Shown here piece after piece: positions 1,468-39,326 of a DNA stretch of 41,506 nucleotides (position 1 is the stretch's first letter; each line of letters starts with the position of its first letter). Source of the DNA: Candidatus Kaiserbacteria bacterium. GTDB lineage: Bacteria > Patescibacteriota > Minisyncoccia > Phycocordibacterales > Phycocordibacteraceae. The position numbers were made by a program, and so were the translations under genes. A model generated the notes under the pieces. It did not search any database. It saw only the letters and a list, made by a program, of their open reading frames with translations, and had not been told where the DNA came from. The stretch lies in assembly GCA_027451665.1 (NCBI GenBank), contig DAIDIW010000009.1, positions 1-41,506 on the forward strand, given 5' to 3'.

Positions 1468-1698
1468 TTGAGCAAGGGCGTACACGATCTCAATGAAGAG
1501 GAGTGCTTGCAGTATTTCGAGTCGGTTAAGATTTGTATTGAGCAAATTTTGGATGAGAAACTCGAAAAAACAAAGAAACTTGCGAAGGCCATAAAAGCTC
1601 GAGCGGCCGTACAAAAAGTGACTGGTGAATTGAGCACGAAAGCATCATCAGTCGCTACGTCATCAAACGAGACCGATGCATCGATCCTGGAGAGTTAA
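1468..1698 (+). CDS. Small hypothetical protein, Lys/Glu-rich helical (76 aa)
   Basis: ORF fills the gap between czcD and the recombinase and overlaps the recombinase 3' end by ~35 bp on the opposite strand; no recognised domain. Confidence 0.35.
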   Translation: MSKGVHDLNEEECLQYFESVKICIEQILDEKLEKTKKLAKAIKARAAVQKVTGELSTKASSVATSSNETDASILES

Positions 1699-2982
1699 TT
1701 TGCTCTTGAGGCACGCGAGCAGCTCCCGCTTCTCAGTGAGCGTGCCCTCCTTGAGCAGATACTTCGCGTAATTGCGAATGTCGATATCGGTCGCGCGGTC
1801 TTTCTTTGAGGCACCGAGTACGCCAATACGGAATTTGTTATATCGCGCCAGTTCTTCCTCGATCCGCGCTTTCATACCAAGCTCGTCTATATGCACGGTA
1901 TCCAAGAGGGCAGAGAGTGCCTCGATAAGCTGCGGCTCATTGATGGGCGGGTTGGCACACTCGACTCCTTTGCCTCGCGTGCAGCGGTAGTAGACATAGC
2001 GGGCAGAGCCGCCGCCCTTGAGGAGTTTCCATTTTTCATCTGCTGTGATGCCGCTGCCACAGTAACCGCAGGTGATGAGTTTCGTGAACGCGAACTCCTT
2101 GCTCTCGGTCTTAGGGATGTAGTGGTCAGCGATAGAAGCCTGCACCTTCTCAAAGAGTTCCTTGGTGATAATCGGGTCGTGCTTGCCCTGATACCAGTTG
2201 CCGCTGCCATAGGGGTACTCGAACTCGCCGTAGTAGAAGGGGTTGCGGATGAGGAGGTAGATGTTTCCGAGGACGAGCGGCTTGCCACTCCTGGCCTTAA
2301 AGCCGATCTTCTTGAGCCACCGATATACCTGACGCCCGCTCCACCCCTCGTTACCCACCTTCTCGAATATCTGCCGCACCACGATGGATCTCTTGGGGTC
2401 CACCCGCATCTGGCAGCGCTTGTCTCGGTCTTTCTCATTCAGATAGCCGGTCGGGGCAAGCCCAGGACGGTATCCCATCTCGGCACGCGCTCGTAGTCCG
2501 CGCTTCACATTGATGACCTTCTGATCGTTCTCGAGCTTGGCCTGGCTCCCGAGGATCATGAGCATGAATTTCTCGTTCGGGTTGTTGGTGAATTTCTGCG
2601 TATAGGTGCGAATCTCCACGAGGTGTTTAGAATCGAGGAGGTCCACGACGGCTCCCAGGTCTCCGGCGTTTCTTGATAGCCGATCCGGTGCCCAGGTGAG
2701 GATGCCGTTGTATTTTCCCGTTCTGATTTCCGCGAGCATCTCGTTGTACACCGCCCGCTGGCCCACCTCCTTGGAGGAGTGACTTTCACGTTTTAGCTCG
2801 ACCACGTTCAGCCCCTCCTTCTGCGCCAGATCGGTCATCTCACGCACCTGGCTTTCTATGGATAATGCCTGACGATCCTCTTCTTCGGTGCTCTTTCTCG
2901 CATAGAGGCAGTACGTCACGGGCGTTGCAATGGCTACGGTTAAGGGGCCCGAGATACGCGCTCTGGTTGCTGTATGTTCCAT
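1663..2982 (-). CDS. Large serine recombinase (resolvase + recombinase + zinc-ribbon domains)
   Basis: CLYARKSTEEEDRQALSIESQ N-terminal catalytic motif, RLSRNAGDLG, NPFYYGEFEYPYG, zinc ribbon CGYCGSGITADEK...CTRGKGVECANPPI; likely ATG at 2982 (MEHTATRARISG) rather than the upstream TTG. Confidence 0.95.
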   Translation of the reverse strand: MEHTATRARISGPLTVAIATPVTYCLYARKSTEEEDRQALSIESQVREMTDLAQKEGLNVVELKRESHSSKEVGQRAVYNEMLAEIRTGKYNGILTWAPDRLSRNAGDLGAVVDLLDSKHLVEIRTYTQKFTNNPNEKFMLMILGSQAKLENDQKVINVKRGLRARAEMGYRPGLAPTGYLNEKDRDKRCQMRVDPKRSIVVRQIFEKVGNEGWSGRQVYRWLKKIGFKARSGKPLVLGNIYLLIRNPFYYGEFEYPYGSGNWYQGKHDPIITKELFEKVQASIADHYIPKTESKEFAFTKLITCGYCGSGITADEKWKLLKGGGSARYVYYRCTRGKGVECANPPINEPQLIEALSALLDTVHIDELGMKARIEEELARYNKFRIGVLGASKKDRATDIDIRNYAKYLLKEGTLTEKRELLACLKSKLTLQDRCIGLV

Positions 2983-2983
2983 A

Positions 2984-3030
2984 CAGTACAAGGGATGACG
3001 CAACCCCTCCTAGGAGTCCAGATGCCCTAG
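2984..3030. repeat. Candidate att site copy 1 (47 bp direct repeat; palindromic core CTCCTAGGAG)
   Basis: cagtacaagggatgacgcaacccctcctaggagtccagatgccctag; 42/47 identical to 8679-8725; directly abuts the recombinase start codon. Confidence 0.75.
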
Positions 3031-34555: not shown

Positions 34556-35449
34556 CTAATGCACGAAGCGGACGTAGATACCGGCGGGGATGACGCGTAC
34601 GCTGCGTTCCTCTGACGCAGTCGCGCGGAGGCCGCCGGACTCTTCTATGTGAAGCTCGCCGCATTCGCCGGCAACGTCGCCAAACGCGCTCTCGACGGCT
34701 TGCGCGAGAGAACACGGCGCATAGCCGGCCGCATAGCCACTCACGAGGAAGAAAGAACCCGGGACGTCAGAGAGCAGGTCCCTCAGCGCGGAAAGCAAAG
34801 CGGGGAGGTCTTCCTCGATCTTCCAGACTTCGCCCTTCGCCCCGCGCCCGAACGCGGGCGGATCGAGGATGATGCCTTCATACCGATTGCCGCGACGCAT
34901 CTCCCGCTTCGCGAATGTGAGCACGTCGTCAAGCAGCCAGCGGATGGCGTCATGCGGAAGTCCTGAACGCTGTGCATTTTCGTTCGCCCAGTCGAGCGCT
35001 TGCTTAGAGGCATCGACGTGCGTCACCTTCGCGCCCGCTAGGGCCGCGACGATCGAAGCGGCACCGGTATAGCCGAAGAGATTCAGCACTTTCGGCGCGT
35101 CAAGCTGCCTGATACGTTCACGCGACCAGTCCCAGTTCGGCGCTTGCTCGGGAAAGATTCCGGTGTGTTTGAAATTTGTAAGCCGCGCGCCAAGCCGGAG
35201 GTCTTCCCATGGGACCTCCCAGTCTTCCGGCAACGCCCGGCGCACGTCCCATGAGCCCTTCGTCTCGCCGCCGAACGCGAATCGCGCGTGTGCCTCCTCC
35301 CAACGTTCAGGAGCGCGCTTCGCCCACAGGGCTTGCGTCTCGGGACGGGCCGTCACGATGGCCCCAAAGCGTTCGAGCTTCATATTCTCGCCCGAGTCGA
35401 TGAGTTCGTAGCCTTCCCAGGGCTTGGTCAGGAGGTGATGGTCGTATCT
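34556..35449 (-). CDS. Class I SAM-dependent rRNA methyltransferase (RlmI/RlmK-like)
   Basis: LNLFGYTGAASIVAALAGAKVTHVDASKQALDWANENAQRSGL; GIILDPPAFGRG. Confidence 0.92.
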   Translation of the reverse strand, partial: RYDHHLLTKPWEGYELIDSGENMKLERFGAIVTARPETQALWAKRAPERWEEAHARFAFGGETKGSWDVRRALPEDWEVPWEDLRLGARLTNFKHTGIFPEQAPNWDWSRERIRQLDAPKVLNLFGYTGAASIVAALAGAKVTHVDASKQALDWANENAQRSGLPHDAIRWLLDDVLTFAKREMRRGNRYEGIILDPPAFGRGAKGEVWKIEEDLPALLSALRDLLSDVPGSFFLVSGYAAGYAPCSLAQAVESAFGDVAGECGELHIEESGGLRATASEERSVRVIPAGIYVRFVH

Positions 35450-36228
35450 CATACGAGAAATTCGGGATGCTTGCGAGACCAATCGTAGAAGACGACTGCG
35501 GCCGATACGGCAGCGTTCAGCGATTCAGTACGCGAATGCATCGGTATCGCGAGCTTGACGTCGCAGTGTTCGAGCGTCTTCTCCCTGATGCCGGCCCCCT
35601 CGTTCCCGACTATGAACGCCGCTGGCGCGTCATACGTATCGACGCCGAGCGTGGTGGAGCCGTCCATCGAAAGTCCGTAGGTCCAGAAACCGTGCTTTTT
35701 CAGCACTTCGAGCGCTTGATTCACATTGCCGATCGCGACGAGCGGGATGCAAAATGCCATCCCGGCAGACGTCTTTACGACCGTACCCGTGACAGGCGCT
35801 TGATTGTGCTCGGGTATGAGCACGCCCGAGAGGCCGAAGGCTGCCGCGCTGCGTATGATCGCGCCCACATTATGCGGATCCTGAACTTCTCCAAGAATCG
35901 CGACGGCGGGATTCGTCGTGAGGTCGATGCGTGCGAGGAAATCGTCGAGCGAGATAAGGAGTTTCTCGGGCGCCATGATGGCGATGACACCCTGATGGAT
36001 CGCATCTCGACCGACGAGCTCCTTGCCCTCATCGCCTTTCAGCTCCTGGACAGGGATGCGATAGTCCTCGAGCTTGGCGCGCAGCTTCTCGTTCTGCAGG
36101 CCTTTCGCGAGGAACACCTTGCGTATCGTCTGCGGTGCGCCCTCAAGCGCCTCCATAAGCGCATGGAGTCCGTAGATATAGATTTTCTCACGTTTCGGCG
36201 ACCGCCTTTTCTGGTTCCGGTCTTTCAT
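35449..36228 (-). CDS. rlmB: 23S rRNA (guanosine-2'-O-)-methyltransferase, SpoU/TrmH family
   Basis: YIYGLHALMEALEG...LGEVQDPHNVGAIIRSAAAFGLSGVLIPE...FIVGNEGAGIREKTLEHCDVKLAIPMHSRTESLNAAVSAAV; start set at MKDRNQK. Confidence 0.93.
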   Translation of the reverse strand: MKDRNQKRRSPKREKIYIYGLHALMEALEGAPQTIRKVFLAKGLQNEKLRAKLEDYRIPVQELKGDEGKELVGRDAIHQGVIAIMAPEKLLISLDDFLARIDLTTNPAVAILGEVQDPHNVGAIIRSAAAFGLSGVLIPEHNQAPVTGTVVKTSAGMAFCIPLVAIGNVNQALEVLKKHGFWTYGLSMDGSTTLGVDTYDAPAAFIVGNEGAGIREKTLEHCDVKLAIPMHSRTESLNAAVSAAVVFYDWSRKHPEFLV

Positions 36229-36229
36229 C

Positions 36230-36350
36230 TGGTGGCTTTGTATCAGTCTGCTCGAACGCATTTTAGCAGAAACGGGGCGCTCTAGGGTAGTCATGCAGGT
36301 AGTCATTCGGGGTATGGTGGAATGACTACCCCCCCTCGCGCCTCTCTCGC
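36230..36350. repeat. Inverted repeat A, copy 1 (rlmB upstream region)
   Basis: 121 bp, reverse complement at 36776-36898; the only visible difference is a homopolymer (C7 vs G9). Confidence 0.92.
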
Positions 36351-36546
36351 GGGATAGACATGTTATTTAGGCCTATGGCCAATGACTTTAGTTTATCCCA
36401 ACAAACCCCAACTTGAAACTTGCGGTTTTTGTCGCGGGGGCGTTAGTCGTAGGGGGTCGGCGGCCTCACTTCTTGCGAACTTTTTGAGATAGGTTCTCGC
36501 CATACAAGGTACTCCAATTGTACCAATTCCCGACCCCCGGAAACGA

Positions 36547-36652
36547 GGCCTTCCTCCTTCCCGTCCTATCCTTTTTCGCAGTTCTACCCCCCACCGACGA
36601 GCAAAAGAAACAGAAGGACGGAAGGAGAAGGCCGAGGCACGAACTCGGCCTT
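36547..36652. other. Overlapping, mutually exclusive inverted repeats in the loop between the two A copies
   Basis: GGCCTTCCTCCTTCCCGTCCT (36547-36567) vs AGGACGGAAGGAGAAGGCC (36615-36633); AAGGCCGAG (36628-36636) vs CTCGGCCTT (36644-36652). Confidence 0.5.
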
Positions 36653-36775
36653 GGGGCGGGCGGACGTGGTACTCCACGGCCGCCATTCACGGAGGAACGC
36701 CACGGGGGCGTTCCGGAGGGAAGTCGGGGTTGCGTTTTGAGAGGAGGCGGCGCTGAAAACGCGAGCGTTGGTGCG

Positions 36776-36898
36776 GCGAGAGAGGCGCGAGGGGGGGGGT
36801 AGTCATTCCACCATACCCCGAATGACTACCTGCATGACTACCCTAGAGCGCCCCGTTTCTGCTAAAATGCGTTCGAGCAGACTGATACAAAGCCACCA
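36776..36898. repeat. Inverted repeat A, copy 2 (duplicate of the rlmB upstream region)
   Basis: gcgagagaggcgcgagggggggggtagtcattcc...actgatacaaagccacca. Confidence 0.92.
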
Positions 36899-37061
36899 TA
36901 GTAGGAACAAGATTTTTTTCAGTGAGGTTTTCTTTGGCATGAGCCAAAGAAAACCATGGATTTTGGGGCAAACCGCGCGCTTCGCGCGACGAGAGGGTGA
37001 GGTTCGAGAATACGAAAGCCGAAGATTCTTTGGAGGGAGGATTTTTTGGAGGGGAGGTCGC
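36894..37061. repeat. Inverted repeat B, copy 1 (serine-recombinase 3'-end remnant, minus-strand sense)
   Basis: Reverse complement of 39099-39255 except a 10-nt insertion (aatacgaaag), T7/A6 tract difference and one C/T; encodes FVFSNLTLSSREARGLPQNPWFSLAHAKENLTEK on the minus strand. Confidence 0.9.
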
Positions 37062-37159
37062 ACTCATCGAGCATACCCCTTACCCCACCCGTCCCGTGCG
37101 CGGGCTATGCAGAGATTTATTTTTTCGCCAAGTTTTTCTGGGCTTGGCGAAAACTCCCT

Positions 37160-37504
37160 TCACACATGGAAGTAAGCGTATATCAATAAAGACGCGGCGC
37201 AGAATATAACACCTGTTCTCGCAAGAAACCTGCTTGATAGGTGGCCTTGCGTGAGGCGATATGTATAGTAGCTAGCGTAGCTGAAATTATACGTTAGTGC
37301 CGGATTGAGTTTCTTTCGTAAGTCGAACTCCCATTTACTCAATATGCAATAGCCGAGAGTGAGCGTTGAAATCAGAGTACCGATAAGCACTCCCAGATAG
37401 ATAACCCAAAATGATGGAACGAGCCAGCCGAAAAGCGCGATGCAGACAACGGCAAAGTGTACTAGCCAAATTGAGTCCGCAGCAATCTTATACAGTGTCC
37501 GCAT
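37160..37504 (-). CDS. Small membrane protein, DUF2784-like
   Basis: 114 aa; SIWLVHFAVVCIALFGWLVPSFWVIYLGVLIGTLISTLTLGYCILSKWEFDLRKKLNP. Confidence 0.6.
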   Translation of the reverse strand: MRTLYKIAADSIWLVHFAVVCIALFGWLVPSFWVIYLGVLIGTLISTLTLGYCILSKWEFDLRKKLNPALTYNFSYASYYTYRLTQGHLSSRFLARTGVIFCAASLLIYAYFHV

Positions 37505-37525
37505 AGCGTTCCCCGCTAGCGAGGA

Positions 37526-37924
37526 CTATATCTTTTTGAACCAATCGTGGTATGGGAGAAGCTCCTTTAGCGGGGCTGATTTACTTTCATCCAAAATCAC
37601 CTCTGTTTCCAAGTTGTCTTTATCTATTTGACGCATGAACTCACGACATCTGCCGCACGGCGATAGAACGTAAGCATCATCATTTTTATCTTTCCAGATA
37701 GCGACTATCTTTTTTATTTTGGATTCTCCGGCTGTAATCATAGCACCGATGGCGTTGTGCTCGGCGCAAAATCCCATACTCGAACTGGTATCTATGCAAA
37801 CGCCAAGATAGACGTTGCCCTTGTCGGTAAGCAACGCACAGCCAACGTCGCCGATAATGTAATCGCCGTTTTGTCGGCTACGCACTACTGCCGCAGCTTT
37901 CGCAATAAGTTCGTCATTCGTCAT
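37526..37924 (-). CDS. Cytidine deaminase-like protein
   Basis: 132 aa; zinc motifs CAEHNAIGAM and SPCGRCREFM. Confidence 0.9.
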   Translation of the reverse strand: MTNDELIAKAAAVVRSRQNGDYIIGDVGCALLTDKGNVYLGVCIDTSSSMGFCAEHNAIGAMITAGESKIKKIVAIWKDKNDDAYVLSPCGRCREFMRQIDKDNLETEVILDESKSAPLKELLPYHDWFKKI

Positions 37925-37932
37925 TTTTAATT

Positions 37933-38451
37933 TTAGTTGAAAAGGGCGATTATATTTTTTCTTGCAAATAAGAATAACATCAGTGCGGCGTAGCTGTAAA
38001 TAATCAGGCCGAACGGGAGATAGCCGCCAAAGCCGAGTATCGGCATTTCAAATACTTTCCAAAAATCGACATACGGAATGGTATATATCCATTTAGGGAT
38101 AGAGTAAAAATTCCACATTTCCCAGAAAAAACCTGTAAAGAGGGTCGCAAACATTACGGAAAACGGGAGTGTCCAATTTCCTTCGGCTGTTTCAGATAGG
38201 AGCGAAGAACTACCGAGCCAACGTGCAAGCGATTCTAGTATCAGAATAGGGGCGACCCATACCAACGCGAATGCTTGCATCGGAAAAGTGTATACAAGCC
38301 AATAGCAAATCGCGGCAAGCAACACACTAATCAACAATGAAAGTGTTTTTGGACGGAAGGGAGCATAGTGCCAAGAGACGAGGCGATGGAAGGAGAGCGG
38401 CGGGAGGCCGTGGAAGAAAGACCAAATAACGAAGTTCCTCTCAAACCCCAT
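37933..38451 (-). CDS. Hypothetical multi-TM membrane protein
   Basis: 172 aa hydrophobic ORF; its 5' end overlaps the truncated recombinase on the opposite strand. Confidence 0.6.
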   Translation of the reverse strand: MGFERNFVIWSFFHGLPPLSFHRLVSWHYAPFRPKTLSLLISVLLAAICYWLVYTFPMQAFALVWVAPILILESLARWLGSSSLLSETAEGNWTLPFSVMFATLFTGFFWEMWNFYSIPKWIYTIPYVDFWKVFEMPILGFGGYLPFGLIIYSYAALMLFLFARKNIIALFN

Positions 38452-39280
38452 CTACTACGGCTACTTCCGCTACTGCGGCGAGATGCACGAAGGCAAGCAT
38501 ACGCCCATTGTCAGCAAGGAACTTTTTGACCGCGTGCAAAAAGTGCTCGCGATGCGCAGCCGAGCGCAGAAGCCGACGAAGCAGCCGCAAGTGCTGTGCG
38601 GCCTGTTGAAATGCGGTATCTGCGGCTGCTCCATCACGGGCGAGGTACAGACCAAAAAGAGCGGTCGAAGGTACGTCTACTATCACTGCACCAAGAAACG
38701 CGGCATGTGTGCCGGAGAGTACATCCGAGAGGACGCGCTTGCCTCGCAACTCACCGAGTTGCTCGCTCGCTTTACCATGCCGGAGGCGTGGGCGGCCGAG
38801 CTATTGCGCATGGCCGCCGAGGACGAAACGAAAGCACACGAAACGGCAGCGTCCGCCGTTCGCACCCTGCGGTCGAGCATCGAGAAGATGGAGAACAAGC
38901 TCGCCCGCCTCACCGACCTCTTTATAGAGCAGGACATAGACCGCCCTGTATATCACGAGAAGAAGGCTGCTCTCATGTCCGAGAAGCGGTCGGCGCAGGA
39001 GCAAGTCCTGCGGCTCGAAGGCGATGCTGCCTCTTGGATTGAACCACTCCGCAAATGGGTTGCGGAGGCTTCAATGCTGGACGAAATACGAAAAAACGGC
39101 GACCTCCCCTCCAAAAAATCCTCCCTCCAAAAAATCTTCGGCTCGAACCTCACCCTCTCGTCGCGCGAAGCGCGCGGTTTGCCCCAAAATCCATGGTTTT
39201 CTTTGGCTCATGCCAAAGAAAACCTCACTGAAAAAATCTTGTTCCTACTATGGTGCGCGGTAAGGGACTCGAACCCCTGA
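38420..39280 (+). pseudogene. Serine recombinase fragment (N-terminally truncated: recombinase-domain end, zinc ribbon, coiled coil)
   Basis: ...FLSNPIYYGYFRYCGEMHEGKHTPIVSKELFDRVQ, CGLLKCGICGCSITGEVQTKKSGRRYVYYHCTKKRGMC, SNLTLSSREARGLPQNPW; lacks the catalytic Ser resolvase domain. Confidence 0.88.
39099..39255. repeat. Inverted repeat B, copy 2 (3' end of truncated recombinase, abutting tRNA-Val)
   Basis: Reverse complement of 36894-37061 with small indels. Confidence 0.9.
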
Positions 39281-39326
39281 CCCTCCCCACGTCAAGGGGA
39301 TGCTCTACCAACTGAGCTAACCGCGC
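39251..39326 (-). tRNA. tRNA-Val (anticodon GAC), CCA encoded
   Basis: Reverse complement GCGCGGTTAGCTCAGTTGGTAGAGCATCCCCTTGACGTGGGGAGGGTCAGGGGTTCGAGTCCCTTACCGCGCACCA. Confidence 0.95.

Follow-up and report, generated by a model that had tools for sequence, protein, structure and literature searches.

A tRNA-inserted element family of Patescibacteria with an inverted internal attachment site and a probably self-inactivating serine integrase

The window, by which we mean the whole 41,506-nt stretch of Candidatus Kaiserbacteria DNA that was analysed, carries two nested pairs of inverted repeats between the host gene rlmB and a tRNA-Val gene. rlmB, a SpoU-family rRNA methyltransferase gene (Pfam PF00588/PF08032), occupies 35449-36228 on the minus strand, and tRNA-Val (GAC), called by ARAGORN, lies at 39251-39326 on the same strand; an Rfam scan of the region returned tRNA and no other match. 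The pentamer TGGTG stands at 36230-36234 and again at 39251-39255, the latter copy forming the CCA end of the tRNA. The first inverted pair, A, has an outer arm at 36230-36351 (plus strand) and an inner arm, A', at 36777-36898 (minus strand), each of 122 nt and 96-98% identical. The second pair, B, has an outer arm of 157 nt at 39099-39255 (plus strand), which contains the 3' end of an integrase gene, and an inner arm of 168 nt, B', at 36894-37061 (minus strand); the two differ by 1 substitution, one 10-nt indel and one 1-nt indel. The pairs meet at CACCA, 36894-36898 (TGGTG on the minus strand). An earlier sequence-only reading had described the same sequences, inverted copies and three TGGTG junctions, and all of them are present in the window.

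Between the A arms lies a 425-bp segment (36352-36776) without a family match, a position that holds 0.9-8 kb of cargo in relatives. Between B' and the integrase remnant sit three cargo genes on the minus strand, encoding a DUF2784 protein (37160-37504, PF10861), a cytidine-deaminase-like protein (37526-37924, PF00383) and a predicted membrane protein without a Pfam family (37933-38451). The remnant itself (38393-39277, plus strand) contains the recombinase (PF07508, from position 47) and zinc-ribbon (PF13408) domains of large serine integrases and reads into the antisense strand of tRNA-Val. It corresponds to positions 206-493 of a 500-position integrase model and has thus lost the N-terminal resolvase catalytic domain, which the family possesses: 64 loci cover the whole model. 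A second large serine recombinase, full-length, of a different type and without the inverted-repeat architecture, is encoded in the window at 1663-3003 (minus strand). At 37066-37170, a motif TTGCCCCACCCNCCCGTGCGCGC is followed by a hairpin and CTCCC; in relatives, the motif lies downstream of B' and of a non-coding region described below, often twice per element, and is possibly an RNA or terminator motif.

An empty site was found in a genome of the same genus (G031, locus L110), in which tRNA-Val is followed directly by a single G and the rlmB start codon (tRNA-Val-CACCA-G-ATG; ...CGCGCACCAGATGAAAGACCG). When the window's tRNA and rlmB are joined at the core, the alignment reproduces this locus; a single base separates the rlmB ATG from the element end, just as a single base separates it from the tRNA in the empty site. 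In two further genomes (G017 and G011), matches continue beyond the tRNA, so tRNA-Val and rlmB are probably adjacent there as well. Because the two genes are contiguous in the relative, all of 36230-39255 is inserted DNA, and the interval represents a single insertion with its ends at the 3' end of tRNA-Val. The sequence-only reading had taken the DNA from 36235 onward for an uninterrupted rlmB upstream region, but 36230-36776 belongs to the insertion. Its short-core serine recombinase acting at a tRNA CCA end holds up, whereas its two host target loci give way to one insertion.

We therefore call A the left element end, joined to host DNA at the core in 36230-36234, and B the right end, joined to the tRNA through the core shared with its CACCA end. 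Since A is an element end and not host DNA, the B-TGGTG-A junction is the element's own attP, lying inside the element in inverted orientation. The middle junction reproduces in full, and inverted, the sequence that the joined ends would have in a circle (B-core-A); it is an intact internal attP.

The same anatomy recurs widely. Among the first relatives examined, L102 (tRNA-Glu) and L104 (a tRNA-Thr-like end) have both nested pairs, which overlap by 6 bp, and two others (L103 and L108) have partial nested structures. After about 100 further loci had been examined, the integrated order tRNA|B-int-B'|A'-cargo-A|host with a shared core was found in the window and some 25 further complete elements, which span 2.7-11.8 kb, carry cargo and lie at tRNA 3' ends (L033, L041, L102, L104, L117, L120, L125, L128, L130, L136, L142, L147, L149, L150, L152, L154, L155, L179, L186, L192, L199, L206, L207, L211, L212 and L217). 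Among these, L149 is counted as complete with an outer flank that is not a tRNA and an integrase that keeps a tail-like end; the second inverted pair of L143 was dropped, as it consists of two tRNA-Ala genes. In about 25 loci other than the window, from independent genomes, the nested pairs overlap by 3-28 bp. The targets include tRNA-Val, Glu, Thr, Arg, Gly, Lys, Leu, Cys, Gln, Ala, Ser, Phe and others. The suggestion of a multi-target recombinase is borne out.

A search with an integrase alignment of 15 rows (A1; E<=1e-40) matched 263 of the 397 genomes of the order, a count that includes outgroup-type integrases. The start of many matches is 50-500 bp away from the end of a contig, a pattern that assembly breaks at the attP copies would be expected to produce. 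In the first set of full-length integrases, the B/B' repeat accompanies 51 of 64, and 31 of the 34 for which at least 3 kb of upstream sequence was available. When 145 integrases were placed in a tree, all 95 with the repeat fell into one group of 112 rows (SH-aLRT 92, quick search); the remaining rows of this group are 11 with too little upstream sequence to judge and 6 without the repeat, which was found in none of the 33 outgroup rows. Because the double-attP architecture is restricted to one clade that spans several Patescibacteria phyla, its distribution suggests that it probably arose once and is old. The window belongs here, with B/B' and A/A' pairs joined at the core and an integrase tail encoded across it. 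Clade members also occur in bins of other phyla (L031, Syntrophaceae UBA7520; L028, Elusimicrobia), which may reflect transfer or binning contamination. Viral contigs hold only distant integrases, of 24-37% identity, and plasmid and phage databases likewise returned distant integrases only.

What does the joined junction encode? Across the family, B-core-A specifies a conserved C-terminal tail of the integrase, LxxARTYFxxN, in frame in 24 of 26 elements, for a chance expectation of 1 in 3 per element. In-frame tails read through the core into A, as for example LYSLARTYFIRNS, LDKVRMYFGQNP or FARTFF. L212 has a stop ahead of the core. The window's B copy lacks one nucleotide, which shifts the tail frame, and the ARTHF tail is in frame from B' alone: the archived copy reads in frame as ...LVPTMVALYQSARTHFSRNGAL, and its tail (36843-36896, minus strand), identified by reading the sequence against relatives, ends in ...VALYQSARTHFSRNGAL and a stop. 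With its integrase N-terminus deleted and its B copy frameshifted, the window copy is a decayed and dead member of the family. Integrated integrases run into antisense tRNA instead of the tail (VRDSNP and similar). Among 107 tRNA-adjacent integrases, 103 have the tRNA at the 3' side, and the tail is present in none of them. In the other four, a tRNA flanks the 5' side alone. Two of these, L180 and L191, lie in the opposite orientation with the tail preserved, L124 stops at a contig end within an exact repeat, and the tail of L148 is broken. These sequences show an integrase gene that extends over attP and has its tail replaced when the element enters a tRNA gene.

The tail motif also occurs at the native C-terminus of some outgroup integrases that lack the repeat (L042, LVDDVRTFF; L073, VLNEVRMYF; L062; L068), and other outgroup integrases end in antisense tRNA. 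Because repeat-less relatives share either the tail motif or antisense-tRNA ends, an attP spanning the integrase gene is probably ancestral and the inverted second attP derived. It follows that the spare copy would not be essential to the basic cycle, which relatives without a second attP probably already had.

Within the A half of attP is a copy of the tRNA T-arm motif, GTTC[G/T]A; the distance from its GTTC to the core exceeds that of the T-arm GTTC in the target tRNA by 4-6 bp (offsets were re-read by eye where a second TTC gave spurious script values). In A118-type integrases, the zinc-ribbon motif of attB is shifted 5 bp towards the centre relative to attP (Rutherford et al., PMC3783163). 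The offset in the family matches this shift, which supports A|B as attP and the tRNA as attB and could account for the range of tRNA targets. The same GTTC motif codes for the conserved R-T of the integrase tail, so that protein and DNA constraints overlap here.

Cargo is varied and includes type I restriction-modification, AbiEii, GMP synthase, lipoproteins and many unknowns. A reverse transcriptase adjoining an Lcl_C-domain protein (L128:11148-13853) resembles, by its gene content, a diversity-generating retroelement within a mobile element. No replication family was among the families listed for 53 cargo proteins (bundled as alignment A2 merely for family scans), and no transfer or replication genes were noticed in the cargo scanned. 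In L218 (493-2311), an integrase lies between two different tRNA-Ser genes, tRNA-Ser(GCT)|B-int-B'|tRNA-Ser(GGA), which could be the natural product of an internal attP and a second tRNA gene; an assembly chimera is also possible. Near a second, distant serine recombinase, L142:102-340 reaches the gathering score for a group I intron (RF00028).

Based upon these observations, we consider it probable that the family consists of tRNA-inserted elements with a self-inactivating integrase and a spare, inverted copy of attP and of the gene end. In its free form, the element would be a double-stranded circle that bears two inversely oriented attP sites, attP1 within the 3' end of the integrase gene and attP2 elsewhere; among the assemblies examined, no circular contig was recognised and a free circle was not observed. 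If attP1 recombined with a tRNA gene, the integrase would lose its tail and a stable, "locked" insert would result, and we infer from the conservation of the tail that activity would be lost with it. In the locked state, an intact attP2 would be safe in a chromosome full of tRNA targets. Recombination through attP2 would give the rare opposite orientation with an intact integrase, here termed "open", which a later inversion could also produce. We infer the role of the spare copy as follows: it would archive the intact gene end together with attP, so that a locked insert retains the information to restore a full integrase, and gene conversion or template copying would maintain the identity of the arms. 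More tentatively, and with somewhat less than even confidence, we suggest that this acts as a lock throughout the clade, in which integration through attP1 strips a needed tail and silences the integrase, and the inner copy offers either a choice between locked and open at each insertion or later reactivation.

A circle with two identical attP sites would be expected to use both at the same rate, but the locked form accounts for 96% of inserts, which calls for selection against open inserts or some other asymmetry. Such selection could arise if an active integrase beside an intact attP were to attack other tRNA genes. Among the open cases, L124 could reflect an assembly error, and L180 and L191 could have arms that have decayed. 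Two further ideas were set aside. First, A' could be the integrase promoter; however, the integrase gene has a promoter-like sequence at its own start (L136, L102), and B' can be kilobases away. Second, the integrase could act directly on a folded, single-stranded attP; double-strand cleavage would then leave hairpin-capped chromosome ends.

The arms of each element co-evolve: B and B' are about 95% identical within one element (median 0.95), compared with 70-88% for the B arms of related elements, and A/A' pairs show the same within-element similarity. Such homogenisation without inversion would also be produced if A'|B' acted as a splint for ends A and B of a single strand imported by competence, which would be circularised without excision while pairing and repair homogenise the arms. 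This would account for the exact duplication of both arms up to the core and for a splint position anywhere in the element, and it fits the lack of transfer or replication genes in the scanned cargo. Still, a serine integrase requires a double-stranded circle, and perfect pairing is broken by an insertion of 9-11 nt that is specific to B', occurring in 16-17 elements, mostly about 114 nt from the core, and never in B (in the window, 10 nt at 37009-37018 on the minus strand, about 115 nt from the core, at the same place as in the B' arms of 15-16 others). We regard self-splinting as unlikely. The length of the insertion is about one helical turn.

Beside the outer A arm of 13 elements lies a conserved non-coding region of 350-500 nt, always on the integrase strand (for example L136:3091-3643, L104:1021-1558, L150:4084-4622, L128:14481-15007 and L142:11977-12537). 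It is apparently structured, with a long closing stem and compensatory changes in 19 of 76 pairs (covariation term near zero), and has no match in Rfam; none of the open contigs extends to it. Its strand bears on a further alternative, slightly less likely again than the splint, in which the integrase, acting on the inverted attP sites, would flip one half of a replicating circle and thereby amplify the circle in the manner of Flp/FRT. In the yeast 2-micron plasmid, inverted repeats contain the recombination sites and the recombinase gene is carried on the circle (PMC3147054), and the topology is alike, with two inverted repeats bearing sites and a recombinase gene running into one of them. 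Equal isomers would be expected, but the conserved region is on the integrase strand in 13 of 13 elements and cargo is never flipped relative to the integrase. Fixed orientation together with homogenised arms suggests that the arms are converted without lasting inversion; it also leaves frequent switching between locked and open by inversion unsupported. Moreover, attP x attP is not a normal reaction of serine integrases (PMC3783163), and neither both isomers nor, among the families listed for the 53 cargo proteins, a replication gene was found.

Less likely than either, A'|B' could be a regulatory repeat upstream of the integrase gene, serving as an operator or pairing in antisense with integrase mRNA. 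B' does end 50-70 nt ahead of the integrase start in minimal elements, but 2-11 kb of cargo separates the two in the window, L104, L132 and L139, and an operator needs no arms of 80-380 bp on either side. Chance rearrangement through microhomology at TGGTG, or an assembler fold-back, is very improbable. A short shared core with inverted repeats invites such a view, as does the frequency with which relatives' contigs break exactly at the repeats, where assembly is difficult. Against it, about 26 elements share the nested anatomy in independent assemblies, including genomes of 3-10 contigs, the architecture is restricted to a clade, the empty site is exact, and the arms differ by features conserved among relatives, such as the B' insertion, which argues against fold-back; recurrence across the whole integrase clade refutes both of these alternatives, which the sequence-only reading had offered. 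Its main model, in which one recombinase end inserted independently at the rlmB upstream region and at tRNA-Val, draws on two B-TGGTG junctions with different partners but is refuted by the empty site, from which the partner A, being element DNA, is missing; A is likewise duplicated in relatives at unrelated tRNA genes.

The family is widespread in Patescibacteria, bacteria with tiny genomes, and apparently undescribed. We found no description of it in the literature on Patescibacteria/CPR serine recombinases or on attP in serine integrase genes, in a search that took in few subscription papers, so that this absence is weak evidence. Mobile DNA of Patescibacteria is little known, and here a common family carries defence genes and other cargo and has repeats that break short-read assemblies. 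If the proposed self-inactivation is correct, a self-truncating integrase with an inverted spare attP would represent an unusual control logic. Its serine integrases, which may recognise a broad range of tRNA genes via the T-arm and CCA end, could also be of use as a tool.

Several known systems share parts of this arrangement. In SSV-type archaeal viruses, attP lies inside the integrase gene and integration at a tRNA disrupts the gene; that integrase is a tyrosine recombinase, its gene is split into two large parts, and there is no inverted archived copy. The present family has serine recombinase domains only and does have such a copy. In temperate mycobacteriophages, attP lies in the repressor gene, and integration truncates the gene and alters its product; unlike this integration-dependent switch, the family alters the integrase itself. 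CTXphi-like elements have two inverted attP copies (dif-like sites) per molecule, and their integrated topology would match that of the family, but they use host XerCD on a folded single-strand site of about 100 nt, whereas the family has its own serine integrase and targets tRNA 3' ends rather than dif. The 2-micron plasmid differs in its Flp tyrosine recombinase, its equal isomers, its autonomous replication and its lack of an integration cycle. A further likeness is to large serine integrase elements and prophages of the phiC31/A118 type, which integrate at tRNA or other genes: full-length relatives have the resolvase catalytic, recombinase and zinc-ribbon domains, attP x attB gives attL and attR, and, as for A118 integrase, the motif of attB lies nearer to the core than that of attP, by about 5 bp (PMC3783163). 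Unlike that type, the family has its attP within the integrase 3' end, a second complete attP inverted inside the element, and a wide range of tRNA targets, perhaps reached through the conserved T-arm.
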